DNA of 28,023 nucleotides from a virus: positions 1 through 28,023 of IMG/VR virus record IMGVR_UViG_3300035698_005278. One strand, written 5' to 3'. The stretch's first letter is position 1, and each line of letters starts with the position of its first letter. This document shows, one piece after another, positions 1 to 15,170 of the stretch. The notes below the pieces were generated by a model. The model did no database searches and had not been told where the DNA came from. It saw nothing but the letters and a program-made list of their open reading frames with translations. The position numbers and the translations under genes were made by a program.

Positions 1-2864
1 CTGCTATCTCTATCACGAGAAATATACTGTGATCCAGATGTCCCACCTAATGTCAAATTCTGCACTGGAACAGCCGTACCAATACCAACTTTGCCATTCG
101 ACAACACAGTAAACGTGCCACCCAAGACATCGAATGGTCCCTGAACAGCAGCAGAGCTGGTAAAGTGTCCATGCGCTGCCTGGATCTCACCGGAGGTCAA
201 GGTAATAGAGTTTACTGATACTGTCCAAGCACCAGTCAAATCACGGGAACCGTCAACCAGCACATAGTTTGTATTGCCACCATCTAAGGCCAGGGTAGAA
301 GTATCTATCCTGATCTGGTCTTGGATCGTGGTTATTGCTGCGGTGGAAGTGTCAAGATTGTTCAGTCTAATTGTCAATGCAGCAGTTGAGGTATCCAGAT
401 TATCAGCTCTAGTAGTCAATGCAGCAGTTGAGGTATCTAAATTATCTATTCTCGTAGTCAAAGTGGCAGTACTAGAATTCAGATTGTTTATGCTTGTTTC
501 GGACGTGCTTCTGAATACATCGAAATCATCTAGTCTACTTTCTGTAGTAGATCGGAACACATCGAAATCATCTAGTCTAACCACAATAGCAGTTGTATCA
601 ACCGCAACAGCATCAAATTGAGTCGAGACATCGTACCCGTCTACAGTACCACTTACCGTAATATCACCCAAAACACTTAACTTTGCTGCAGTAGGGGCTA
701 CCCCAAATCCTATGTCACCAGAAGAACTCATGGAAAGCAAATCGCCTGTAAATGCTCCAGCAGAATCTAAACCGCCTATCTTGTAGAATCCCGCCTGAGT
801 ATAGACCTTATACCCACCATCTGTAGTATCAAACATAGACACTCCAGGATCGCCCGTCCCTGTGTCCTGAATGCCTATAGCTGCATTGCCCGAGTCTACC
901 ACCTCAAGCAAGTAGCCTGGAACAGTTGTTCCTATGCCGACATTCCCTGCAACATAGGCATCGCTACTAATCGTAACCGCATTAGTAAATGTGTTCAGAC
1001 CGCTAAAGGTCTGGGTACCTGTAAGCAACGCATAGTCTAAATTAGCTAGAGTGGCCGTATCGATTCTAATTTGATCTTGAATGGCAGTTATATTTGCAGT
1101 TGAAGTGTCTAAGTTATCAGCTCTAGTGGTTAATGTGGCCGTGCTAGTATCAAGATTATCCACGCGAACTCCAAGAGTTGTCGTGGAAGTAGTGAGAGAA
1201 GCCGTTGCAATATGCAGAGTATCTACCTCAGATCTTAGAGTAGATGTATCAACCCGAATCTGATCTTGGATTGTCACAATAGCAGCCGTTGAGGTATCGA
1301 GATTGTTCAGTCTAACCGTAAGCGCAGTAGTTGAGGTGTCTAGGTTATCCACTCTATCTTCCGACGTGCTACGAAATACGTCAAAGTCATCTAGTCTATC
1401 TTCTGAGGTACTACGGAACACATCAAAGTCATCTAATCTAACTATAATTGCAGCAGTAGATGTATCGAGATTATCGACTCTCGTTTCGGACGTACTACGA
1501 AACACATCAAAGTCATCTAATCTAACTATAATTGCAGCAGTGGAGGTATCGAGATTATCTATACGTGTTGTTAGAGTGGCAGTGGACGTATCAAGATTAT
1601 CCACTCTAGTTTCAGACGTGCTTCTGAACACATCAAAATCATCCAATCGAACCGTGATAGTAGCGGTGGAAGCGTCGAGGTTGTCGACTCTAGTTTCGGA
1701 CGTACTACGAAACACATCAAAGTCGTCCAGTCGAACTGTAATAGCAGCCGTAGATGTATCCAAGTTATTCAGCCTAACCGTAAGTGCAGCCGTGCTAGTA
1801 TCAAGATTATCAGCTCTAGTTCCAAGAGTAGTCGTTGATGTGGTCAATGAAGCCGTAGCAATATGCAGAGCGTTAACCTCAGATCTCAGAGTAGATGTAT
1901 CAACTCGAATCTGATCTTGGATTGTAACAATAGCAGCCGTGGAGGTATCGAGATTGTTCAATCGAATCGTCAATGCAGCGGTAGATGTGTCTAGGTTATC
2001 GACACGAGTTGTTAGCGTTGCGGTAGAGCTGTCGAGGTTGTCTGTTCTAGTTGTTAATGTTGCAGTGCTAGCATCAAGATTATCCACACGAACTCCAAGA
2101 GTTGTCGTGGAAGTAGTGAGAGAAGCCGTTGCAATATGCAGAGCGTTAACCTCAGATCTTAGAGTAGATGTATCAACTCTGATCTGGTCTTGGATCGTGG
2201 TTATTGCAGCAGTTGATGTGTCTAGGTTATCGACACGAGTTGTAAGCGTCGCAGTCGAAGAGTCGAGATTGTCTAGTCGAACGGTGATCGTTGCGGTCGA
2301 AGCGCGGAGGAGATCTACTTCAGTTCTTAGAGTTCCAGTATCAATCCGAATCTGCAATTGAACAGCAGCTATAGCGCCTGTGGATGCATCTAGGTTATCT
2401 AGTCTAAACTGAGGCTCGTAACCCAATAAGGTCACGCTAGCAGGGTTCAGGACATAGGTAGCTGAACTGCCAGCAATTGTTCTGATAAATTGAACTGACA
2501 ATACGTTCAAGCTTGAGATAGCTACCTTAGACGTACCATCAACGAAAGTATTCAGGATTGTTGTATCTCCAGAACTTGGAGAACTATTCAGAATCGAGCC
2601 ATCACCGAATTTAATCAGATCGAAATATCCAGTTGAAAAGAATCTTAGAGACGTACCAACAGCATAAGAAGAACCTGAACTCGGAACGACATCACCAAAA
2701 TTACTCGAATCATCCCCGTCATGTTTATGTGTATCCATAATGAAATAAACATCTTCAAAAACCTTGTTGATGAAAGGTTGATCCTTTATTCTATATGGCG
2801 GTTGTTCAGCATAAGCCGGACATAGAAATAAAAACAGTGCCATTAAAGTTAGGAATATTTTCAT
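1..2864 (-). CDS. Long coiled-coil tail fibre with signal peptide (C-terminus beyond left edge)
   Basis: The frame is open from the ATG at 2862-2864 to the left edge, at least 954 residues, with the C-terminus missing. Residues 1-19 form a classic signal peptide (basic start, Leu/Phe core, ending CPAYA). About 135 residues follow that may anchor the fibre to the tail. From about residue 155 to 610 the protein is built of 14-residue (two-heptad) repeats such as RLDNLDTSTAAITT, alternating with longer units containing IQDQIRVDTSTLRSEV. A beta segment with NVGIGTTVP follows, then a second coiled block (about 755-855), then another segment with GKVGIGTAVPVQ. GIGT-type segments are known from phage tail fibres and trimeric surface proteins. 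The start overlaps the stop of the upstream gene (ATGA), so translation is probably coupled. Likely role: trimeric host-recognition fibre. A C-terminal intramolecular chaperone may lie outside the window. The fibre call is secure; receptor specificity is unknown. Confidence 0.85.
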   Translation of the reverse strand, partial: MKIFLTLMALFLFLCPAYAEQPPYRIKDQPFINKVFEDVYFIMDTHKHDGDDSSNFGDVVPSSGSSYAVGTSLRFFSTGYFDLIKFGDGSILNSSPSSGDTTILNTFVDGTSKVAISSLNVLSVQFIRTIAGSSATYVLNPASVTLLGYEPQFRLDNLDASTGAIAAVQLQIRIDTGTLRTEVDLLRASTATITVRLDNLDSSTATLTTRVDNLDTSTAAITTIQDQIRVDTSTLRSEVNALHIATASLTTSTTTLGVRVDNLDASTATLTTRTDNLDSSTATLTTRVDNLDTSTAALTIRLNNLDTSTAAIVTIQDQIRVDTSTLRSEVNALHIATASLTTSTTTLGTRADNLDTSTAALTVRLNNLDTSTAAITVRLDDFDVFRSTSETRVDNLDASTATITVRLDDFDVFRSTSETRVDNLDTSTATLTTRIDNLDTSTAAIIVRLDDFDVFRSTSETRVDNLDTSTAAIIVRLDDFDVFRSTSEDRLDDFDVFRSTSEDRVDNLDTSTTALTVRLNNLDTSTAAIVTIQDQIRVDTSTLRSEVDTLHIATASLTTSTTTLGVRVDNLDTSTATLTTRADNLDTSTANITAIQDQIRIDTATLANLDYALLTGTQTFSGLNTFTNAVTISSDAYVAGNVGIGTTVPGYLLEVVDSGNAAIGIQDTGTGDPGVSMFDTTDGGYKVYTQAGFYKIGGLDSAGAFTGDLLSMSSSGDIGFGVAPTAAKLSVLGDITVSGTVDGYDVSTQFDAVAVDTTAIVVRLDDFDVFRSTTESRLDDFDVFRSTSETSINNLNSSTATLTTRIDNLDTSTAALTTRADNLDTSTAALTIRLNNLDTSTAAITTIQDQIRIDTSTLALDGGNTNYVLVDGSRDLTGAWTVSVNSITLTSGEIQAAHGHFTSSAAVQGPFDVLGGTFTVLSNGKVGIGTAVPVQNLTLGGTSGSQYISRDRDS
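290..2410 (-). repeat. Degenerate 42-bp tandem repeats in the fibre gene
   Basis: The DNA repeats with a 42-bp step (14 codons) and several variant units. At least seven units encode the motif DFDVFRSTSE (for example near 499, 541, 1362, 1401, 1486, 1612 and 1698). A longer composite unit of about 95 bp occurs almost identically at about 1159-1253 and 2083-2177, with a more diverged copy at about 1819-1903. Copies that are near-identical at the nucleotide level indicate recent internal duplication or recombination. Confidence 0.85.
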
Positions 2865-4537: not shown

Positions 4538-7297
4538 TTAGCACCTCAACGAATTCACAAAGGAAATCCATGTCTCTCGCTTTGGTCGAACTCGCTTTAT
4601 TTCAAATTCAATGTCTCGGACTGTATCTTTCTTTGCTTTTGCAAGATCTTTTTCACCTAGTCGCTTTAAGGCCATGTCTTCTCGGATCTTGGCAATATTT
4701 GCCATAGCGCCAGCAGGAGAGTTGGGATCACGTTCAGCTAAAGTTCGTATCCTCTGACCCATAGTTGTAGCCTCAGTCGCCAGACGTGAATTAATAGCTA
4801 AATCTCGTAATGTAGCTACGTCTCCTTCCTTGATAGCTCTACCTTCCACTGCAACAAACAAACTCTCTGGGATAACATTTGGAGGCGGTCTTTCTAGGCC
4901 CATAGCAATCCTTTTGGCTTGTTCATAATCCTGAGACATTATATCGTTGGCAGCAAGTGCCTGCTCTTTCATGTTGACTGTTTTGTATTCTGGTAAACCA
5001 CCGAAACCTTCGGTAAGATTCTTTGAGATTGCCATTGCTTCAACATTCTCAGATAATCCCCTTGTTTCAACTTTGCCTGTTCCAGCTATTGGAGGCAATT
5101 TTATTGGTCTTGTGGGTTGTTTTTTTGGTTGGGATTGCGCCTTGTTCCAGATGTCGGTGAGTTGGGCATCATTTTCTGGAGTAAACACAACATTAATTGT
5201 TTTCTCACCTAAATCTATTTTTTGATAATACCTATTGTTCCCATCACGAATTACTATCTTTCCATTTTTAAATCTTACCGCAACAGGATCATTAGGGTGT
5301 TTTGATTCTATTTTTCCAATTGCTTTTATAATTTGTTCTCGACTAACAGGAGTTGATACCATATCTATTGGAATAGTTTTCTCTGCGTACACAAACTCCT
5401 CCGCACTCTTGTACTTGCGGGCTTCTTGGATTAAAGATTGTTCGGGGGTTACTGCTGGGGTTGGTTCAACGGCTGGCCGTCCAGGCTCAATGCCCAGTCC
5501 TGGCCCTTCGACGGGTACTGCCTCTCCAACTCTTGCTTCGAGGAGATTGGGGTCCTGTGTTTTGGTAGGTAAGGTTTTCCATTCATAATTTGTTCCCTCA
5601 CTTTTATTATACTGGTCGATAAAGTTTTTGTCAAGGACGATTCTACTCTTCCCCGACTCTTTAGCCTTGAGGCTCATCAGGTCCGCTGCTTTCTCTCCTA
5701 CACCGAAACCAGATGAGAAGGTTATTCCCTTATGTTCTACCCCTTCACGGTTCGTGACAGTCAATCTACTCGCTTCTTCCTGAAAGGCTTTGAATCGATC
5801 CATCACCTCATACGGGCTACTCTTCTCGCCTTTCGGGTTGATAACTAGAGCAAACTCATCACCACCAAGTCTAACAGGCGAAAATCCATGCTTTTTAGCT
5901 AAGATCATAGCACCTTTCATCAAAGAATCAGCACCCGTATGCCCCAAATCTGTGTTTAATTGCTTCAAATTGTCAATATCCATGTTGATTAATGGAGTTT
6001 CAATCAGTTTTTTTCCATCAATCTTGCGTTTCGCATCAAAAACAAACTGTTTCTGCCATATTCCAAGATCTTTTGTAATAAATCTATCAGATATTTCAGA
6101 TTTAGCGTCCTGTAACTCTTGACTAGAAACCGCTTTCCCACCGGACTCCCTCTGGACTCTTTCGAGAGTTTTTAGAGATTTTGGAACCGGTACATCGAAA
6201 TCGTTAAGAATGTCTGTTTTGTCGAATTGGGTTGGGGTTTCACGTGGAACAATCGGTGCTTTATCTGGAAGAGGGGCCTGCTTAGGGGCGGGGACAGGTT
6301 GTCCCTTTTCTGAACCAAACGAAGTCACTGCTTGCACTCCACCACCCATAGCAGCACCAACCAGAGTCCCGAAAACAGCAGCAGAATCTACGCCTTGATC
6401 TAACGGTTGTTTTGTAGCTGCATTTTGAGCTATTTGCTCCTGAACGGACTGTGGAAGTTCTTCAAGAATACCCTCTTCAAATGCACCATATATAACCATT
6501 TTGACAAGATTCTTCTGTGCTTTTGGAGCAGTATATCCAGCAGTTAACAAAACATCAATATCGGCAATACCCAGTTTCTTTGCAATCTTACCGCCAAGAG
6601 CGCCTAACATGCCAGTGGCAGCCCCAGAAACTCCAGCAATAGCAGATTGTCGCCCAGACAGACGGCCAGATGGTTCATCCTGTCGGACCTGTTCAGCTAG
6701 ACTTCCTGCAGAAATAGCACCTTCACCAGCAGCAGCAGCAGCGACAGGAGTAATCTTTGAAGCAAGCTTTGGTAAAATTTTAGGAGCAAGTTTAAGCAGT
6801 CCTCGACCAGCAGCAGCAGCTCCTATCATGGATGGAGCAGACTCAGCAATAGCTTGAGTGATAACTGAAGGATTAGAAAGAACCGCGACAGCTTTATCTA
6901 TTATTCCTTTTGACTTACCAACTCTCGTGGAAGCTTCTTTCTGTGCTGGAGAATAAATTTCATTAAGCATCTCTTTGGATCTTTTAGGATCAAACCCTGC
7001 AACATCCTTCAGGAATTTGCCCGCTCTTCCGCCTGTCGTAATATCAGCTAATCCTACGTATGACTCGGGGAGGCTAATGGCACCCTTAAGCAATGAAACC
7101 CCTACATCTTGAGCCCTCTCTGTGTAAGTGGCCGTAGTTTCGGGTTTAACAGATTGAGCAGCCTGAGGCGAAAGTAATTCCTCCGTGCTCAGTATCTCTT
7201 GACTGGATTTCTTTCCAAACAAATCTTCTGAAGAGATTATTCCATTATCTTCTTTTGAAAATAACTCTTCTGTTGAAATTATTTTATTTTTTGCCAT
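4538..7297 (-). CDS. Large internal virion (polyvalent) protein with GGDEF diguanylate cyclase domain
   Basis: This is a 919-residue multidomain protein. Residues 1-45 hold three copies of a short acidic motif (IISTEELF, IISSEDLF, ILSTEELL). Residues 50-330 are Ala/Gly-rich helical segments typical of phage internal or ejection proteins. Residues about 405-560 are a GGDEF domain: D440 in the DIDNLK motif, N448 and D457 at the guanine-binding positions, GGDEF at 478-482, and a distal AKESGKSR segment. No RxxD inhibitory site precedes GGDEF. Residues about 640-705 resemble a ParB-type fold (IVIRDGNNRYY, then LGEKTI). Residues 740-860 match a conserved polyvalent-protein segment (ESLFVAVEGRAI, MGQRIRTLAERDP). 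GGDEF enzymes make c-di-GMP from two GTP. The gene overlaps its upstream neighbour by 19 bp and abuts the next gene. I infer a virion-carried, ejected enzyme. The domain calls are firm, the delivery route less so. Confidence 0.8.
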   Translation of the reverse strand: MAKNKIISTEELFSKEDNGIISSEDLFGKKSSQEILSTEELLSPQAAQSVKPETTATYTERAQDVGVSLLKGAISLPESYVGLADITTGGRAGKFLKDVAGFDPKRSKEMLNEIYSPAQKEASTRVGKSKGIIDKAVAVLSNPSVITQAIAESAPSMIGAAAAGRGLLKLAPKILPKLASKITPVAAAAAGEGAISAGSLAEQVRQDEPSGRLSGRQSAIAGVSGAATGMLGALGGKIAKKLGIADIDVLLTAGYTAPKAQKNLVKMVIYGAFEEGILEELPQSVQEQIAQNAATKQPLDQGVDSAAVFGTLVGAAMGGGVQAVTSFGSEKGQPVPAPKQAPLPDKAPIVPRETPTQFDKTDILNDFDVPVPKSLKTLERVQRESGGKAVSSQELQDAKSEISDRFITKDLGIWQKQFVFDAKRKIDGKKLIETPLINMDIDNLKQLNTDLGHTGADSLMKGAMILAKKHGFSPVRLGGDEFALVINPKGEKSSPYEVMDRFKAFQEEASRLTVTNREGVEHKGITFSSGFGVGEKAADLMSLKAKESGKSRIVLDKNFIDQYNKSEGTNYEWKTLPTKTQDPNLLEARVGEAVPVEGPGLGIEPGRPAVEPTPAVTPEQSLIQEARKYKSAEEFVYAEKTIPIDMVSTPVSREQIIKAIGKIESKHPNDPVAVRFKNGKIVIRDGNNRYYQKIDLGEKTINVVFTPENDAQLTDIWNKAQSQPKKQPTRPIKLPPIAGTGKVETRGLSENVEAMAISKNLTEGFGGLPEYKTVNMKEQALAANDIMSQDYEQAKRIAMGLERPPPNVIPESLFVAVEGRAIKEGDVATLRDLAINSRLATEATTMGQRIRTLAERDPNSPAGAMANIAKIREDMALKRLGEKDLAKAKKDTVRDIEFEIKRVRPKRETWISFVNSLRC

Positions 7298-8157
7298 TGA
7301 TTGTTCCCGATATATTTATAGGTTCCCTTACCTGGAACTGTTTGAGTTTCTTCTTTGGTATATCCAAATTTGTCTTTCTCACTAGTACTTGCGTTACCTT
7401 TAAAAAGACCACCAACCCCTTTTGCTGCAGATCCAATCATCTTAACTCCCTGTGCTGCAGATCCGAGCATATCAGCGAACCAGCTAGACTCTTCTTCCTC
7501 TGGCATTTCTTTAGCTCTAAATCGATCAATCTGCTCTTGAGGATATCCAGCCTCTTCAAAAGCAGCAGCAACTTCTTCTCTCAGAGAATCCTCATCAACT
7601 CCACCCTTTGCCTTCAGATACTCTGTATAAGCTTTATTTGCTCTGCTATTCAAAGCTGTCTGATTCTTGTCTGTTTCGCTTTTATCAAACCCAGCTTTCT
7701 GTCTCTCAGTCTGTCCTTCCAATCTTTTGTCTTGTCTTTCCTGTTGACCAGTAGCAGAAATCCTAGTCCTAGCGACTGCAAGCGTTTGTTTTAGTTGTTC
7801 CTCAGGTTGCTTTGTGCCAACAACAAGATTTGCACTAGGATAAGCAGCAGCTAGCATTGGAGTAATTTCAGTCATCTTTGGTGTTGCCGGTTTCCCGAAT
7901 CTAGGTTGATTAGCAGCGATTCCACTCGTTATAGGTTGCTGTTGCGGAGTTGTGCCGGCAGTAAGACCAGCAGCCCCAGGACCAGCAGAAGGCATCCTGA
8001 ATGATCCAGACTCATTTATCTCATCAACGGCCTGTTGATATGATTGAGGCGTAAAAAGACTTGGATTGTTTTGTAAAAGATTATCGAGTCTATCGAATTG
8101 ATCCTTTTTCTTGTCGTACTCAAACTTTCTACGCGCTGTTCTCATTCCTGTTGGCAT
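7279..8157 (-). CDS. Internal virion protein, 292 aa
   Basis: This is a 292-residue protein with a basic N-terminus, a Pro/Gln/Ala-rich linker (about residues 55-100), a charged Gln/Lys/Arg helical stretch (about 125-185) and a Gly/Ala amphipathic segment (SAAQGVKMIGSAAKGVGGLF) that could touch membranes. The C-terminus ends in a short Tyr/Trp-containing module (GTYKYIGNNQWQKIK). AAGGAG lies 6 bases before the ATG. It sits between the 403-aa and 919-aa internal proteins and overlaps the latter by 19 bp. Position and composition fit the middle member of a three- or four-protein ejection set like T7 gp14-gp15-gp16. I see no direct similarity to those proteins, so the call rests on context. Confidence 0.55.
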   Translation of the reverse strand: MPTGMRTARRKFEYDKKKDQFDRLDNLLQNNPSLFTPQSYQQAVDEINESGSFRMPSAGPGAAGLTAGTTPQQQPITSGIAANQPRFGKPATPKMTEITPMLAAAYPSANLVVGTKQPEEQLKQTLAVARTRISATGQQERQDKRLEGQTERQKAGFDKSETDKNQTALNSRANKAYTEYLKAKGGVDEDSLREEVAAAFEEAGYPQEQIDRFRAKEMPEEEESSWFADMLGSAAQGVKMIGSAAKGVGGLFKGNASTSEKDKFGYTKEETQTVPGKGTYKYIGNNQWQKIK

Positions 8158-8172
8158 ATCTTTCTCCTTTTA

Positions 8173-9384
8173 TTAAGACCAAATTGATGCAATGGATGCT
8201 ATCCCACTTCCTCCACCAAAATCACTCACAGTAGGCAGAAGCAAATCAGGAAGTCTGTTTGTCATAGACTCCCAGAAACCAGGACCTTCAATTTGCTTCT
8301 GTTTTAGATCTAATTCCCTAGAACTCAATTCATTCTTGAATTTCAATTCAGCAGCAGATTTTTCTTTTGCCCAATCAATCTGCTGGGCTTGCAAGAATTT
8401 CCGAAGATCAAATTCTCCACCAGTCATACTCTCTTTACTCTCTATCTCAAGTCCAGTCAACATGGTCTGGAATAGATTATCAATAAGATTCTGTTTCTCT
8501 GTATTAGCTAACTGCATACCCTGTAACCGTCGATCAGCTTCAGCCGATGCCATTTGATACATCATTCCCTTCTCATCTTGCTGCAACTTAGCAAACGAAG
8601 GATAGGCTTGAGCTAACATCATCTCTTCAACGGGACCACGCTCGTATCTATCTTTATAAGCTTGTCGCACTTCTTTTTCTTTCTCTGCTTGTCTACCCAA
8701 CTGAGACATAGCCAATTCGCTACGAGCTCCAGCTTTCTGTGCGAGTCCTTGTCCCTGAGCTCCTGCCATAGCAGCCGTGATAGGCTCAGAAATCCTACCT
8801 GCACCACTGATCCCGTACTCTTCGCCGGTCATCTTAATATCAGCTATAGATCGAGCTATTTCACGATCAATATCTTTTAGAGTCTGTTGCAAAATCCCAG
8901 ATTCAGTCTGCTTAATAGCCTCTTCAGCCGTGCTAGGAGTCTGTAGCAATTTTAAGTAATCCTGGAATTGTCCCTCAGATTTTTCGCCTACACCCTTAGC
9001 AAGATCGGCATATTGCTGAGGTATTGCATTAGGATTAAGTCCTTCAGCATATTTGCGATATTCTTCTAAAGGTTGGTTTATTCCTGAATAATCAGTTTGA
9101 CCACCTGAAAGGACACCTTTCAAAAGGTTCCCGTAGAATTCATCGGGGGAAGTCCTATCAAATGAACCGTCAGCAGGTCCTATATATTTAGGAGCAGCAG
9201 GAATTGTAGTTATTTGTTCTCCTCCAAGTCCAGGTCCACCATAAGCAGTCAATCCAGACATAAACGTTGGCTCTTCATTCCCTTTCCGCATACCAACAAC
9301 ATTCCCATTATTATCAAGTATATTTGTATAGGGACTTGAACCTGTCGTCTGAACTTGTCTCTGAACACTGCTTGGTAGAATCAT
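8173..9384 (-). CDS. Internal virion protein, 403 aa
   Basis: This is a 403-residue protein with a Gly/Pro-rich N-terminal third that is likely disordered (about residues 40-85). Long helical, Gln/Glu/Lys-rich stretches follow from about residue 120 to 355. A small-residue segment (ISEPITAAMAGAQGQGLAQ) lies near the centre, and the C-terminal end is hydrophobic (LPDLLLPTV, then GIASIASIWS). A strong Shine-Dalgarno (GGGAGGG) precedes the ATG. It directly follows the tail nozzle gene and precedes two further internal-type proteins, the usual place of ejection proteins in short-tailed phages. No enzyme motif was found. The internal virion role is inferred from gene order and the helical, low-complexity make-up. 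Confidence 0.55.
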   Translation of the reverse strand: MILPSSVQRQVQTTGSSPYTNILDNNGNVVGMRKGNEEPTFMSGLTAYGGPGLGGEQITTIPAAPKYIGPADGSFDRTSPDEFYGNLLKGVLSGGQTDYSGINQPLEEYRKYAEGLNPNAIPQQYADLAKGVGEKSEGQFQDYLKLLQTPSTAEEAIKQTESGILQQTLKDIDREIARSIADIKMTGEEYGISGAGRISEPITAAMAGAQGQGLAQKAGARSELAMSQLGRQAEKEKEVRQAYKDRYERGPVEEMMLAQAYPSFAKLQQDEKGMMYQMASAEADRRLQGMQLANTEKQNLIDNLFQTMLTGLEIESKESMTGGEFDLRKFLQAQQIDWAKEKSAAELKFKNELSSRELDLKQKQIEGPGFWESMTNRLPDLLLPTVSDFGGGSGIASIASIWS

Positions 9385-9396
9385 AATTCCCTCCCT

Positions 9397-12300
9397 TTAT
9401 TCCTGTGGTGCAGGATCACTCGTATAGTATAAATTCCCATTCAATAGTCGCCATGCATTGATACTAGATATAGACCACTTGAAACTTATGTATTTCCCCT
9501 GTTTCAACTTAGAAACACTGAATGGTAATTTGAAATTCTGGTATCCAGTCTTGGTATCCATCGCATAATCTGCCATAGATATAGCATTCCCATCCTCATT
9601 CACATAATATTCAGTCTCTAACGTTGCATCGCTATTGATCGTTGTCATGAACAATTCATCGAAAGTCGTATACGTATCAGCTCCAGATACTGGGAATGTT
9701 TTAGTCTTGTAATACGCATCAATCGCCGATCCATCATCATCTGTCCCGTATTCAAGCTGATAAATCCCATTTGAATCTCCGAAATAAAACGTACCAGAAT
9801 AATTCACAATTCCATCGACATGGATTCCACTATATCTCTGCCATTGCCGATTCTTATCGTAAACCAAAACTTTGTTGTTTGAAGTCGAAAAAACTGCAAC
9901 AGCTAACCAATATCGATTCTCAATGTAATCAGCAAAAGTCCGAATTGCACTACCTTCACTGAAATTAACCGTAATGCTATGAAGTATCACCGAATGAGTC
10001 GAGACTGAACCTTTATAAAAATCTGCTGAGACTGTGATATATTGACCCACTTCGATACTAGGAGTCTGTCCATCAACAACGGATTGGCTAGCTAGATAGG
10101 TAGAACTATCGTAAATATCTATACTGGAATCAGTATCAACAAACAATGTGTAATCTATCGATCCACCACTCAGAGTATCGTCAAGTCCAATTGTTCCCCA
10201 TTCGTTGAATTTAGTATTCGCATCAAATGATCTTGTCGTAAATGTTGAATAGAATACCATCGTTGCAAAATAAACTTGAAATGTTCCATCGTAAGATCCT
10301 AGTGTATAATTCGATCCTCCTGTGGTAAAACTACTCGTATAGAGTAGGACACTCGACGAATAATCAACCGTAGCTAATTCAGGTGCGTAGAATTCTGCGT
10401 GAGGAATATAAGTTATAGTCGTTCCACCATTGCCATAATACCCTGTCGCAAAAGTAGCTCCACCGTGTGCAAAATAACTGGAACCGCCACCGCCTCCTCC
10501 TTGTCCGGTTGTATTACAACATCCACCACCTCCTCCCCCATAATAACCACCGCCACCACCTCCTTGAGAGGGAGATTCCCCTCCCACACCCAAAATACCA
10601 CTTTTACCAGCGCTTTGTCCGCCAACTCCCCCAGAAGATTGAGTTCCACCTCCTCCACCACCATCGGGATAATTAGAAGCAAACCCTCCTTTTTCCCCAT
10701 TAGGTGGCGTTCCAAATCCAGCAGCCCCACCCGTAGAAAGGAATCTTAAATCTGAACTTGGAGGCCAACAAGCATTTCCGTAACCACCACCCCCAGCAGC
10801 AACAAGAATACGATCTGTCCAAGTTGATCCATTTATCCTAATATCAGAAGATCCTCCACCACCTGAATTTGATCCGCCTACTCCCACGTAACCCACACTA
10901 GTGGAATCGCCTCCCCCATTCCAACCACCAGGAGCAAGGTGATCACTTACTGACTGACCAACCTCTCCAGCTCCACCCACAAATACCGACAATATATCTC
11001 CAGGAGTAACTGTCATAGTTGCGGTTACAAGTGCTCCTGATCCTGTCCTTAATGCATAAGATCCGACACCCCCAGAACCTCCAGCCAATTCTATAGTTAT
11101 GCTACTTACACCTATTGGAACTACAAAAGGCTCAGACGAACCTGAGTAATCAAAATTTTGAGTGGTTATTGATGCTACATTCGTTATAGTCGTATGCATC
11201 ACAAACCAATATGTATTCCCAGCTGCTAAACGCTTATCAGTCATAGTGGATTGACTGAAATAATAATCACTAGTGTATGTGGTCAAATTCCCATTACTGT
11301 TCGTATTAGATGAAATCTTAGTCGTCGAAGTATCAAACACAACCTCAGCCGGGCAAGTAGCCCCCGTATGAAGCGTTAACCAAGAATCATACCCTTCAAC
11401 AACGTTACTCTTATACTGGAACCCCATAGTAACCTTATCTAACTGAAACGTGTCCGTAGCAATGAACATAACAGCGTAAGCACCAGTAGAAGATGAATCA
11501 TAAGTCGAATACATGCTATCAGAAGTCCCACCACTTCTCGTCGCTCCAGTAGCAAGAAACACAGAAACCTGAGTCGTCGAACCAGAAAATAATCCGATAT
11601 CACCAGGACTCGTAGTCGTATCAATCGCAACACCAAGCGTCCCAGAAGCCCAATCAGCAGCACTCGTCTGGACCCACTGCCGATTGTTCAAATCCCCCTG
11701 TTCAATCGTCTCCATATAGGTATCGATATTCTGACTGATAGGATAATACTTCTCACCATCAAATTCGTAAATAATCCGATCATTCCCAAACCACCGTAAC
11801 ATCCCATCACAATTCTTAATCGAATCGGGATAATTGCATCCAACCGTATCGCTATACTCCCGACTCTTGAAATTGCTCTTACGACTACCAAAAATAGCCC
11901 CAAATGAACGTTGCTTGTACCACATAAGCTTATCATCATAAGTAGCGTATAGACCCGTCAAAATGTCATCTAAGGCCCCTTGAATCTGCAGTCTGGATGG
12001 ATCTGTATCAATAGAATCAGCAGCAAGAGTAAAATTGCTACCATCTAAATATTCTGAAACATAAATCGTTCGCTCATCACCAGAAATACCAGCCATCCAT
12101 AACCGACCTTTATGCGTTACCAGGAATTTAGGCTTATAAGTCCCCACAACATAAACATCAGATGTATCCCAATATTTCAAACCATCAGTAGTGTTACAGA
12201 AATATAATTCATCTCCTAACCCTGTAACATAAGTCGTCACATCAGGATCAACAGTCGAAATCGTAATGGTAAACGATTCACTGCCAAGAGTAGCTTTCAA

Positions 12301-12582
12301 AACATTGCTAGACTGAGTAATGAAATACTTCGAGCCATTCGCAATATAGAAACTGAATAGATTCTTCGACGATTCAGTGGAAAACTGAATATACCCCGCA
12401 CGAGGCTTCAAGCCCGATCCATCATCAGTCACTATATTCTCAGCGTCAGGAGTCTGATCCTTAAGAAATAATGCGTTATCATCAGTATTTAATCCACCAA
12501 ATTCACTGATCCTCGCTACGGCTGAATATATAGCAACCGTAGTGAAAACAAAGAGTGAAGTTAAATACAGGAATTTTTTCAT
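9397..12582 (-). CDS. Tail nozzle / DNA-stabilisation-type protein with signal peptide and inserted glycine-rich domain
   Basis: This is a 1061-residue protein. Residues 1 to about 23 are signal-peptide-like (MKKFLYLTSLFVF core, possible cleavage after AVA). The segment FGGLNTDDNALFL, then DAENIVTDDGSGLKPRAGY, is the typical start of podovirus tail nozzle or stabilisation proteins (P22 gp10 / T7 gp12-like beta-propellers). Repeating beta blades follow. Residues about 487-727 are a glycine-rich domain with many GGGGG runs and IELAGGSGG and ILVAAGGGGYG motifs, a module known from phage adhesins and other surface proteins. Blade-like sequence resumes after it (NRYWLAVAVFS, YDKNRQWQRY). The ATG overlaps the adaptor stop (TAATG), as expected for adaptor-nozzle partners. 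Likely role: lower tail tube with a surface-exposed insertion. The combination with a signal peptide is odd and is covered in the findings. Confidence 0.75.
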   Translation of the reverse strand: MKKFLYLTSLFVFTTVAIYSAVARISEFGGLNTDDNALFLKDQTPDAENIVTDDGSGLKPRAGYIQFSTESSKNLFSFYIANGSKYFITQSSNVLKATLGSESFTITISTVDPDVTTYVTGLGDELYFCNTTDGLKYWDTSDVYVVGTYKPKFLVTHKGRLWMAGISGDERTIYVSEYLDGSNFTLAADSIDTDPSRLQIQGALDDILTGLYATYDDKLMWYKQRSFGAIFGSRKSNFKSREYSDTVGCNYPDSIKNCDGMLRWFGNDRIIYEFDGEKYYPISQNIDTYMETIEQGDLNNRQWVQTSAADWASGTLGVAIDTTTSPGDIGLFSGSTTQVSVFLATGATRSGGTSDSMYSTYDSSSTGAYAVMFIATDTFQLDKVTMGFQYKSNVVEGYDSWLTLHTGATCPAEVVFDTSTTKISSNTNSNGNLTTYTSDYYFSQSTMTDKRLAAGNTYWFVMHTTITNVASITTQNFDYSGSSEPFVVPIGVSSITIELAGGSGGVGSYALRTGSGALVTATMTVTPGDILSVFVGGAGEVGQSVSDHLAPGGWNGGGDSTSVGYVGVGGSNSGGGGSSDIRINGSTWTDRILVAAGGGGYGNACWPPSSDLRFLSTGGAAGFGTPPNGEKGGFASNYPDGGGGGGTQSSGGVGGQSAGKSGILGVGGESPSQGGGGGGYYGGGGGGCCNTTGQGGGGGGSSYFAHGGATFATGYYGNGGTTITYIPHAEFYAPELATVDYSSSVLLYTSSFTTGGSNYTLGSYDGTFQVYFATMVFYSTFTTRSFDANTKFNEWGTIGLDDTLSGGSIDYTLFVDTDSSIDIYDSSTYLASQSVVDGQTPSIEVGQYITVSADFYKGSVSTHSVILHSITVNFSEGSAIRTFADYIENRYWLAVAVFSTSNNKVLVYDKNRQWQRYSGIHVDGIVNYSGTFYFGDSNGIYQLEYGTDDDGSAIDAYYKTKTFPVSGADTYTTFDELFMTTINSDATLETEYYVNEDGNAISMADYAMDTKTGYQNFKLPFSVSKLKQGKYISFKWSISSINAWRLLNGNLYYTSDPAPQE

Positions 12583-13322
12583 TATCTCGGTGCCACCTGT
12601 ACACTATTGGAATAATTTACCATAGACCCTAACCTAGCTCGCATCACAACAATCTCATTGGTATAGAGCTGATAATAAGTCTGGAATTCCGTAAGCTTCG
12701 ATTCAATCCGCTTAATCTGTGCCGAAACATGATAAACAATCGCTTGATGATAAGAAGTCAAATTGCTCTTAGAATCAAACGGGATATCAGTCGTTACCGA
12801 TACAGAACTAACCGTACTGTAATATTGAATAGTTACAGTACCAGTCGTTAGAGTCGTTGCTATAGGAATGTAACTTATAGTGAGATTCTCAGAAGATGGA
12901 CCAGCACCAACCTGAGAAATATAGTATTCCGATGGAGTACCAGTCTGAGTCTTCCACTCAACATTATCACTATAAAGCTTGCGAATAGAAGTTTCCTCTA
13001 TCTCTATGATATTGCCTGAAGTATCTTTCAACTCAACTTTCTCTACGGCAATTAAATCACTCGGGAGATCGTAATAAGTAGTGTTGACAGAAAGAGCATA
13101 ACTGGTAGTCTTCTCAGCTAACCAAGTCGCATTAACAATCTCTCGCTGTGCAGTATTGGCAAACGTAGCCAACACTGCGTCGCTATATCTATACCTGGAA
13201 GAATCAGCAGGATTATCATTAACATTAATTCTTACCTGATCACAAACCTCAGATAAAGTAAGAGAATAACCCGCTGAAACACAAACAAAAAGAAGGAGAA
13301 TAGATAGGATATATTTTTTCAT
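12582..13322 (-). CDS. Head-tail adaptor (gp4/gp11-like) with signal peptide
   Basis: This is a 246-residue protein. I place the start at the ATG at 13320-13322, because AGGTGG lies 5 bases before it; an in-frame GTG at 13331 has no ribosome site. Residues 1-20 are a clear signal peptide (MKKYILSILLLFVCVSAGYS). Mature residues then read TLSEVCDQVR, SSRYRYSDAVLATFANTAQREI, YDLPSDLIAVEKVEL and, near the end, helices with HVSAQIKRIE. This pattern (disordered start, RYSDA helix, then a beta strand with LP.D) is that of short-tailed phage adaptor proteins that attach the tail to the portal. It precedes the nozzle gene with a one-base overlap. A signal peptide on an adaptor is unexpected, since adaptors normally join the portal in the cytoplasm. 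The family call is moderately sure. Confidence 0.65.
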   Translation of the reverse strand: MKKYILSILLLFVCVSAGYSLTLSEVCDQVRINVNDNPADSSRYRYSDAVLATFANTAQREIVNATWLAEKTTSYALSVNTTYYDLPSDLIAVEKVELKDTSGNIIEIEETSIRKLYSDNVEWKTQTGTPSEYYISQVGAGPSSENLTISYIPIATTLTTGTVTIQYYSTVSSVSVTTDIPFDSKSNLTSYHQAIVYHVSAQIKRIESKLTEFQTYYQLYTNEIVVMRARLGSMVNYSNSVQVAPR

Positions 13323-13331
13323 ATATCCCAC

Positions 13332-13781
13332 CTATTTCACATACTCTTCCCAAATATAAGCGCCTTCAGTCCCCAAATACCCACTATCATCCCAAACACC
13401 CCACAATTTACCCTGATAATTGGTTTCCCAAGTATCTTCATCACTTGTTAAACTAAACGATGATAAATGAATACCAACCGTAGTCCCATAGAAGTCATAG
13501 GCATCAGAAGCATTTATCTGCAATGCAGCGTGAGATGACATATTCACAATTATACGAGTACGCCACCGGTTAGTCGTCCCAAGGTTTGTGTTAAGAATAG
13601 CAGACGAAATATCAACCGACGTACTAGTCGATGGAGATACCATCCGTTCCCTGACACTAGACCCACCCTGAATACTCACTGGATCGACACTTCCCCGTCT
13701 ATCTACACCAGCATTGCCAGCAGAGCCAGCAATACCAGTGCAAACAAAGAAAAGAGAAAATAATATTGAAATATAACCCAT
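13332..13781 (-). CDS. Small exported tail-module protein of unknown function
   Basis: This is a 149-residue protein with a hydrophobic N-terminus (residues 1-21, GYISILFSLFFVCTGIAG, small residues SAGNA after it) that looks like a signal peptide, though its first residues lack the usual Lys or Arg. The mature part is Ser/Thr-rich with predicted beta strands (SFSLTSDEDTWETNYQGKLW, GVWDDSGYLG). The ATG has AAGGGGG about 6 bases upstream. It lies between another signal-peptide protein and the adaptor gene, and is probably a structural or virion-surface protein. I do not recognise a family. The Cys in the N-terminal segment is not in a proper lipobox, so a lipoprotein is unlikely. Confidence 0.6.
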   Translation of the reverse strand: MGYISILFSLFFVCTGIAGSAGNAGVDRRGSVDPVSIQGGSSVRERMVSPSTSTSVDISSAILNTNLGTTNRWRTRIIVNMSSHAALQINASDAYDFYGTTVGIHLSSFSLTSDEDTWETNYQGKLWGVWDDSGYLGTEGAYIWEEYVK

Positions 13782-13795
13782 ATTAAACCCCCTTG

Positions 13796-14644
13796 TTATG
13801 GTTGTGGAGTAAAGTATGTCTGGATATACCTCACATTGTAGTCATTGGTACCAGTTCCATCAGTTGCGAAGTTAATTGTGTTGTAAGTCGCATCTTCTAC
13901 ATAAGTAGTCGTAACGGCCCCAGCTTCATCAACATGGTAAATATCGCCAGTAGCTGCAATATCATTAGCAAGCCCAATATCATCATTCGTTCCGATGAAA
14001 ATTGCAACAGTCGCATCAGGAGTCCCAAGACCAATTGTAATATTAGAAATGGTTATACTTGAGATAGAAGCCCAAGCAATATTTCCCAAACCAGCAGTAG
14101 CATTAGAAGTTGAAACTAAGGAAATATATTCATTAGTTGAAATTCCAACAGAATTAATTCCCTCAACATAACAAGTTCCAGTAACTGTCATCGTAGTTTG
14201 ACCAGTTGATCCAGTCGCAACAGTAGCCAAAATAACAATATTCCTCGGAACAGGTGACTGAGTGAAATCCGAAGTAACATAGGTCGTTCCACCAGCAACT
14301 AACGTTGTGGTCGAAATGAATGCACCAGCAAAGATAATATCATGATCTTTAGCAGGTAGATCAACAAATGATTCAAGATGTCGAGCTACTCCACCAAGAG
14401 TAATCATTCCATTATCAGCAAGATACAATTTCAACCAATTAGCAGTCGGTGATCCTAATTCTCCAACTCTGGAATGATTCGTGATATGTCCGCCAGACGA
14501 TACTCTATAAGCATAAGTAGAAATGTCCAAAGAATAGTTAGCGTCAATCGTAAGTCTGTCACTCTCAGTATCAGCATTTCCTGCAAAAGCAAAATTGCCT
14601 AGTAGGAATACAGATAGTGAAGCGAGTATTAATTTTTTCAACAT
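13796..14644 (-). CDS. Exported beta-rich structural protein (282 aa)
   Basis: The best start is the ATG at 14642-14644, because GGAGGTG lies 5 bases upstream; the longer open frame to 14707 adds unlikely residues overlapping the upstream gene. From this start the protein opens with a textbook signal peptide (MLKKLILASLSVF, ending NFAFA), cleaved near residue 21. The remainder is Thr/Gly/Val-rich and beta-strand-like (TTLVAGGTTYVTSDF, SSITISNITIGLG). It ends in IQTYFTPQP. Such sequences occur in phage head or tail surface proteins. It follows the capsid block and opens the tail block. I do not recognise a specific family. Confidence 0.6.
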   Translation of the reverse strand: MLKKLILASLSVFLLGNFAFAGNADTESDRLTIDANYSLDISTYAYRVSSGGHITNHSRVGELGSPTANWLKLYLADNGMITLGGVARHLESFVDLPAKDHDIIFAGAFISTTTLVAGGTTYVTSDFTQSPVPRNIVILATVATGSTGQTTMTVTGTCYVEGINSVGISTNEYISLVSTSNATAGLGNIAWASISSITISNITIGLGTPDATVAIFIGTNDDIGLANDIAATGDIYHVDEAGAVTTTYVEDATYNTINFATDGTGTNDYNVRYIQTYFTPQP

Positions 14645-14663
14645 CGATACACCTCCAAATATA

Positions 14664-15170
14664 TTAGTCCGGTCGTATGTATTCAAGATTACCAGCATCA
14701 GGATCATCAGGCCGAAGTTGTCGACGGATGTTTTTCAGACGATGCGCCTTCTCTAAATACGCCTGAGAAAACTCAGTTTTTGCCATTTCATTAGCTGCTT
14801 TCCTGAAATCAGGATTAAGCGAACCATCTTCAAATTGCTTCAACCGAGTCATCTTTCGAGGTATCATCATCTTCTGGACTTGCTCTATCAAATTAGTCTC
14901 ATCACGTTCAAGATCAGCTTTTTCAGCTTCACTCAAAGGTTCAGGTTGACTACCAGCTAGAACTCGTTCCATTTTTGTTATCTGTCGACTATTCCGACTT
15001 TTACCACCACTTTGAAGCTCTTGAGAAATACTCTTCTTCATCTCTCTTGAAAATTCAGGCGATTCACCAGCTTCATCTCTCTTAGATGTGTTGATGTCTC
15101 TCTGCATATTCATTCTTTCTTCAAGTGGTGCGATTCTCCGCATTGGTTTCCCTCTTGGATCGGCACTCAT
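14664..15170 (-). CDS. Charged helical virion-morphogenesis protein of unknown function (168 aa)
   Basis: This is a 168-residue, highly charged protein without signal peptide or membrane segment. The N-terminal half is rich in Arg, Ser and Lys and probably disordered. The second half is helical (SEAEKADLERDETNLIEQVQ, AYLEKAHRLKNIRRQL). AAGGAG lies 7 bases before the ATG. It sits directly downstream of the major capsid gene and upstream of the exported tail-module proteins. Proteins of this place and make-up are often head-completion or assembly factors, but I see no family motif, so the role is left open. The region just upstream carries a partial duplication of its own start site. Confidence 0.55.
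   Translation of the reverse strand: MSADPRGKPMRRIAPLEERMNMQRDINTSKRDEAGESPEFSREMKKSISQELQSGGKSRNSRQITKMERVLAGSQPEPLSEAEKADLERDETNLIEQVQKMMIPRKMTRLKQFEDGSLNPDFRKAANEMAKTEFSQAYLEKAHRLKNIRRQLRPDDPDAGNLEYIRPD

Follow-up and report, generated by a model that had tools for sequence, protein, structure and literature searches.

A GGDEF domain in a predicted ejection protein

Does a short-tailed phage carry, inside a protein that probably enters the cell with its DNA, an enzyme able to make a host second messenger? This question was raised by a virus record of IMG/VR, a stretch of 28,023 bases that was analyzed as a whole (the window). A first-pass annotation had described an intact diguanylate cyclase domain within an internal virion protein and placed it at positions 5617–6082. 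In this protein, designated P0001, residue 406 starts at 6082 and residue 560 ends at 5618, in agreement with that placement to one base. Features of P0001 and of neighboring genes are shown in Table 1.

The domain was detected by the Pfam model PF00990 (residues 436–531, 24.6 bits against a cut-off of 23.8, E = 2.4e-5) and by TIGR00254 (residues 433–553, E = 1.1e-7), the latter with 31.7 bits, which is under its own cut-off of 37.4. A sequence search against PDB returned 20 chains with the whole P0001 and 39 with the GGDEF domain alone, nearly all of which were GGDEF cyclases (best hit, 3ign). Using an alignment of the domain with 48 viral-contig relatives as input, AlphaFold2 modeled nearly all of residues 435–560 with pLDDT of about 90–96, and the top 50 solved structures identified by Foldseek with this predicted fold were all GGDEF proteins (E from 1e-9, TM 0.6–0.7). 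HMM search and structure prediction, both of which had been named as checks by the first-pass annotation, bore out a GGDEF fold, and the GGDEF domain in P0001 is real.

Table 1. Positions of P0001, its domains and motifs, and neighboring genes in the window
Feature	Position	Strand	Evidence
P0001, 919-aa multidomain ("polyvalent"-type) predicted ejection protein	4538..7297	-	ORF and domain matches
Tandem short motif IISTEELF / IISSEDLF / ILSTEELL, residues 6-13, 20-27, 35-42	7172..7282	-	Sequence, shuffles
All-helical N-domain, residues 55-327, common to giant F116-type phage proteins	6317..7135	-	Sequence, model
GGDEF domain, residues 404-556	5630..6088	-	HMM, PDB and fold matches
Metal/GTP-binding segment D440-x-D-x-x-K445-x-x-N448 ... 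H453 ... D457	5927..5980	-	Alignment
GGDEF signature, residues 478-482	5852..5866	-	Sequence and alignment
Distal AK546-E-S-G-K550-S-R552 phosphate-binding segment	5642..5662	-	Alignment
Exchangeable cassette, residues 629-720, borders YKSAEEFV ... LTDIWNKA	5138..5413	-	Border comparison
C-terminal domain, residues 706-919, common to L002, L003, L004	4541..5182	-	Sequence comparison
P0002, conserved partner gene directly downstream of P0001, 558 aa	2861..4537	-	Homology; separate gene in L002, L003
Two ORFs (292, 403 aa) in the place of smaller ejection/internal virion proteins	7279..9384	-	Position; homolog of 403-aa ORF in same place in L265
Nozzle-type P0006 and SU10-type adaptor P0007 tail genes	9397..13331	-	SU10_adaptor E 3e-20; common to L265, L267

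Catalytic core of the P0001 domain

Multiple alignment showed that D440, K445, N448, H453, D457, GGDEF (478–482), D539, K546 and R552 of P0001 match conserved columns. All residues previously read as being in register with active cyclases (D440, N448, D457, GGDEF 478–482 and the distal AK..GK.R segment, which includes K546) were confirmed, and the RxxD inhibitory site was indeed absent, as positions 469–472 read KHGF. The fold and active-site residues are the same as those of the diguanylate cyclases PleD, DosC and DgcB. However, P0001 differs from these enzymes in that it has no sensory domain, DxLTGLxNR motif or I-site, and the C-terminal half of its GGDEF domain is shorter, by ~10 residues relative to canonical cyclases.

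The DxLTGLxNR motif, which is typical of GGDEF domains but not strictly defining, is eroded to DLGIWQKQF (residues 410–418) in P0001. This stretch was poorly modeled by AlphaFold2 (pLDDT 43–63), and the corresponding columns were ~90% conserved in the 49-sequence alignment. The spacing between G530 and D539, counted in the alignment, is 9 residues in P0001 compared to mostly 15–27 in canonical cyclases from the same scans. Because the N-terminal motif is reduced and this spacing is 9 residues, the domain is divergent overall, but its catalytic core is intact as judged from sequence. The earlier description of the domain as intact thus applies to the core and not to the eroded DxLTGLxNR motif or the short C-terminal half.

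GGDEF and SGDEF domains in giant phage proteins

Scans of IMG/VR revealed 30 non-redundant GGDEF/SGDEF domains in giant phage proteins (ORFs of at least 1300 aa); those found by a VND pattern had not been selected for DEF or K546. D440, N448, G479, D480, E481 and K546 were conserved in 30/30 domains and D457 in 26/30, and the mean frequency of the top residue per column was 0.53. SGDEF replaced GGDEF in 21 of these domains, and 28 had the same 9-residue G530–D539 spacing as P0001. The giants (L026, L031, L059, L069, L105, L111–L113, L115, L130 and others) resemble P0001 in catalytic residues, in this spacing and in being located downstream of tail or internal virion genes in the loci examined. 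For example, genes for a tail protein and an internal virion protein precede the L130 giant, and upstream in L112 there is likewise a gene for an internal virion protein. Unlike P0001, most giants are 2000–4400 aa long, mostly have SGDEF and contain a recognizable (D)xLTGxxNxRA motif; several members, L115 and L111 among them, keep a better-preserved GGDEF domain than that of P0001. The N-domain and GGDEF domain also occurred together in L153/L220 (one contig), L218 and L230.

One polyvalent protein of 3445 aa (L026, 6641–16978, + strand) contained two GGDEF domains together with LPD5, LPD1, ART-PolyVal and LPD38. The second GGDEF copy was altered, with GGDEI and an N at the position of the guanine-contacting D457.

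Small phage GGDEF proteins were also identified. Two examples (L078, 470–976 and L165, 7742–8224, +) are stand-alone proteins of 160–168 aa which group with the giant-protein domains and have the 9-residue spacing seen in P0001. Such proteins differ from P0001 in that they are encoded by stand-alone genes (about 150–170 aa) outside virion proteins. Stand-alone phage GGDEF genes were already known (PMC8471281). The small phage GGDEF proteins include those of the Yuavirus / Bordetella phage LK3 and CN1 type.

Phylogenetic analyses placed giant and small phage GGDEF domains in one clade (support 100/99). The 9-residue spacing suggested that P0001 may belong to this clade. In the free tree, P0001 fell outside it and had a branch length of 5.26 changes per column; a joint clade of P0001 and the phage domains was not rejected (p-AU 0.765). 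P0001 scored slightly better with the canonical HMM (45.3 bits) than with the phage HMM (38.6 bits), and an IMG/VR scan with its GGDEF domain as a single-protein query found no relative. The GGDEF matches in INPHARED that were opened (L012–L016) were set aside: they were mostly sensor-type cyclases on bacterial contigs, and L012 was a conjugative-type element.

It is conceivable that the P0001 domain keeps the fold and the pocket and is no longer a cyclase, functioning as a sensor or sponge of GTP or c-di-GMP, or as a structural spacer in a fast-evolving ejection protein. Bacteria commonly have degenerate GGDEF domains, and because DxLTGLxNR is lost in P0001, there is room for a domain that only binds its ligand. 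The very long P0001 branch, the modest family scores and the altered second copy of L026 are consistent with such a role. However, P0001 and essentially all 30 giant-protein relatives keep the metal and catalytic residues, and retention of D440, D480, E481 and K546 is not what one would expect of a dead domain. We regard loss of cyclase activity as unlikely, if still a serious contender.

Modular organization and gene neighborhood of P0001

P0001 is composed of the N-domain, GGDEF domain, cassette and C-terminal domain. The N-domain was modeled with pLDDT mostly above 90, and its predicted fold had no match in PDB. The borders of the cassette were fixed while the inserts differed in five other contigs (L003, L004, L005, L006 and L007); the search pattern included the right border but not the left one. 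The border consensus was YK(S/T)AE(E/D)FV ... LTDIWNKAQ, and some inserts resembled ADP-ribosyltransferases. L002, L003 and L004 shared both P0002 and the C-terminal domain of P0001, and lacked the GGDEF domain. L265, which is closest to the window in its capsid, adaptor and nozzle, had an unrelated 569-aa protein in the place of P0001. Since the closest contigs lack the domain, contig comparison indicates that GGDEF is an exchangeable module of P0001 and is not essential to this phage type.

P0001 and P0002 are in the same frame, and readthrough of the TAA codon between them was considered and rejected, as relatives keep two genes, either in another frame or spaced apart. Homologs of P0002 were observed on contigs from MAGs of Saccharibacteria, Gemmatimonadetes, Omnitrophota and Acidobacteria; these contigs are possibly viral strays.

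Adaptor, capsid and nozzle-type genes were located upstream of P0001 on the same strand, in an order common to L265 and L267. A glycine-rich domain (ALK/LTK-type, E = 3e-15) was inserted in the nozzle-type protein (9397–12582, −) and was missing from the L265 homolog of that protein. The putative tail fiber (3–2864, −) contained many degenerate RVDNLDTSTA(A/T)-type repeats and a signal peptide.

Evidence for the proposed ejection of P0001

Residues 55–327 of P0001 showed 43–45% identity over ~270 residues to the N-terminus of F116-type giants. These proteins (phiC725A_54, F116p59 and 8P_023) have the same N-terminal helical domain as P0001, and 8P_023 has a short N-terminal tandem motif too; however, they are far larger and contain annotated methyltransferase-type modules instead of GGDEF. 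Of the 86 ORFs carrying the N-domain, most of which were longer than 1500 aa, 83 had it starting no later than residue 120. The authors of the phiC725A study linked their F116-type homolog both with phiRIO-1 internal virion protein D and with the virion RNA polymerase that N4 injects (PMC5217972). Another giant protein, gp69 of the Bcep22-like phage JC1, occupies a comparable genome place and was among the virion proteins best detected by mass spectrometry (PMC9144972). Neither JC1 gp69 nor N4 vRNAP matched the N-domain HMM at E 0.01, and gp69 was consequently dropped as homology evidence and kept as an analogy only.

The first-pass annotation had counted the GGDEF-bearing protein among ejection-type proteins. 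This assignment is supported as probable by the F116-type N-domain and by the adaptor–nozzle–ejection–fiber operon; on homology and gene order, P0001 is probably an ejected virion protein. Since its placement in the virion derives from these two sources, P0001 could instead be an ordinary late protein that is not packaged and acts in the producing cell. We consider this very unlikely: the N-domain is common to giants of the F116 type, which have been related to internal virion proteins, P0001 is downstream of tail genes, and its N-terminal tandem motifs are typical of the N-domain group.

The self-match of the N-terminal motif of P0001 was reached by 0/1000 shuffles. Short N-terminal tandem motifs, which differ between phages and are near-identical within one protein, were enriched in proteins with the N-domain: 29/76 had such a motif at shuffle p < 0.01, compared to 8/311 control ORFs. 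They were seen at the N-termini of giants in L017, L153 and L185–L264, and the motif at L011 9029 was EDLGIIPI, present five times; examples elsewhere include NPFDQFD, FFDDTEE, KPWExF and LKPFTGxLD. These tandem motifs possibly represent an undescribed packaging or docking signal.

Relation to polyvalent proteins and proposed function

The occurrence of GGDEF in such proteins, which the first-pass annotation had implied to be novel, was already published together with a proposed signaling role. Iyer et al. 2017 described polyvalent phage proteins as injected, named GGDEF as one of the domains found in them, though "not very widespread", and suggested from few examples that it serves cyclic-nucleotide signaling against host responses or rivals (PMC5512222). 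We found no experimental test of this 2017 proposal in the literature. The GGDEF-containing polyvalent proteins, such as WP_004096050.1 of the Acetonema longum prophage, share with P0001 a GGDEF domain in a multidomain phage protein, a virion-gene setting and proposed injection. P0001 is likewise located among late/virion genes, and its relatives exchange modules. It differs from the previously described proteins in its smaller size (919 aa), eroded N-terminal motif and a C-terminal partner region that is a separate gene, P0002. Pfam searches detected no curated LPD, ART or methylase domain in P0001 and no curated polyvalent domain (LPD etc.) in P0002; curated polyvalent-associated domains were present in the GGDEF relatives L026, L031 and L069. 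New in the present analysis are P0001 as a further member, the number of giant-protein domains and the conservation of their residues, the 9-residue spacing, and the predominance of SGDEF in that set.

We propose, with about an even chance of being right, that P0001 is an ejected protein of a short-tailed phage whose paired GGDEF domain synthesizes c-di-GMP, or a dinucleotide related to it, as soon as the phage enters. The N-terminal tandem motifs would plausibly help bring P0001 into the particle, and the helical N-domain would be the part common to such ejection proteins, with effector modules (GGDEF and the second cassette) riding behind it. At infection, P0001 would enter the cell together with DNA. 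Two GGDEF copies would then pair, bind GTP via D440/K445/N448/D457/D480-E481/K546 and produce c-di-GMP or a related dinucleotide before phage gene expression. The presence of N448 and D457 argues for GTP as the substrate. As the I-site is absent, synthesis would lack the usual product inhibition through the RxxD site. If active, this enzyme, delivered with DNA, would make a host second messenger ahead of any reading of phage genes, and may thus provide a route to stop swimming, change the state of the surface or biofilm, or misdirect immunity based on cyclic nucleotides as the phage enters.

An active nucleotidyl cyclase might also be aimed at host immunity and not at resetting motility. Its product might mislead or saturate defences that use cyclic nucleotides, or might be a linear or mixed dinucleotide. 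Interference with host responses through similar nucleotides was suggested by Iyer et al. (PMC5512222), cyclic nucleotides serve as decoys on the defence side in Panoptes (PMC12657218), and other conflict domains occur in polyvalent proteins, e.g., ART-PolyVal in L026. However, P0001 has both residues that contact guanine, N448 and D457, which point to GTP and c-di-GMP, and we consider this target rather improbable.

Returning to synthesis of c-di-GMP or a related dinucleotide at entry, a broader and more tentative possibility is that a phage-specific GGDEF/SGDEF family in injected proteins of many short-tailed phages might serve as a weapon that needs no gene expression, resetting or jamming dinucleotide signaling during the first seconds of infection, with P0001 as a minimal single-domain example. 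The recurrent and catalytically conserved set of giant proteins makes a direct assay worthwhile.

Signal peptides on tail proteins

Sec-like signal peptides were observed on the adaptor, nozzle, fiber and neighboring proteins of the window (3–2864, 9397–12582, 12582–13331, 13332–13781 and 13796–14707, all −); the capsid, portal-type, terminase-type and ejection proteins had none. Such signal peptides would imply export of tail parts, which to our knowledge occurs in no tailed phage. Together with the N-terminal tandem motifs, they may matter more than the GGDEF finding. The same pattern was present in L265 (1467–5907, 12607) and L267/L011, with signal-like N-termini in 18/45 ORFs by a simple rule (not SignalP), compared to 53/886 in control phage loci. 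It was also present in L196 (558, 1261, 3283, 14334), and was kept across relatives whose adaptors are 28–46% identical.
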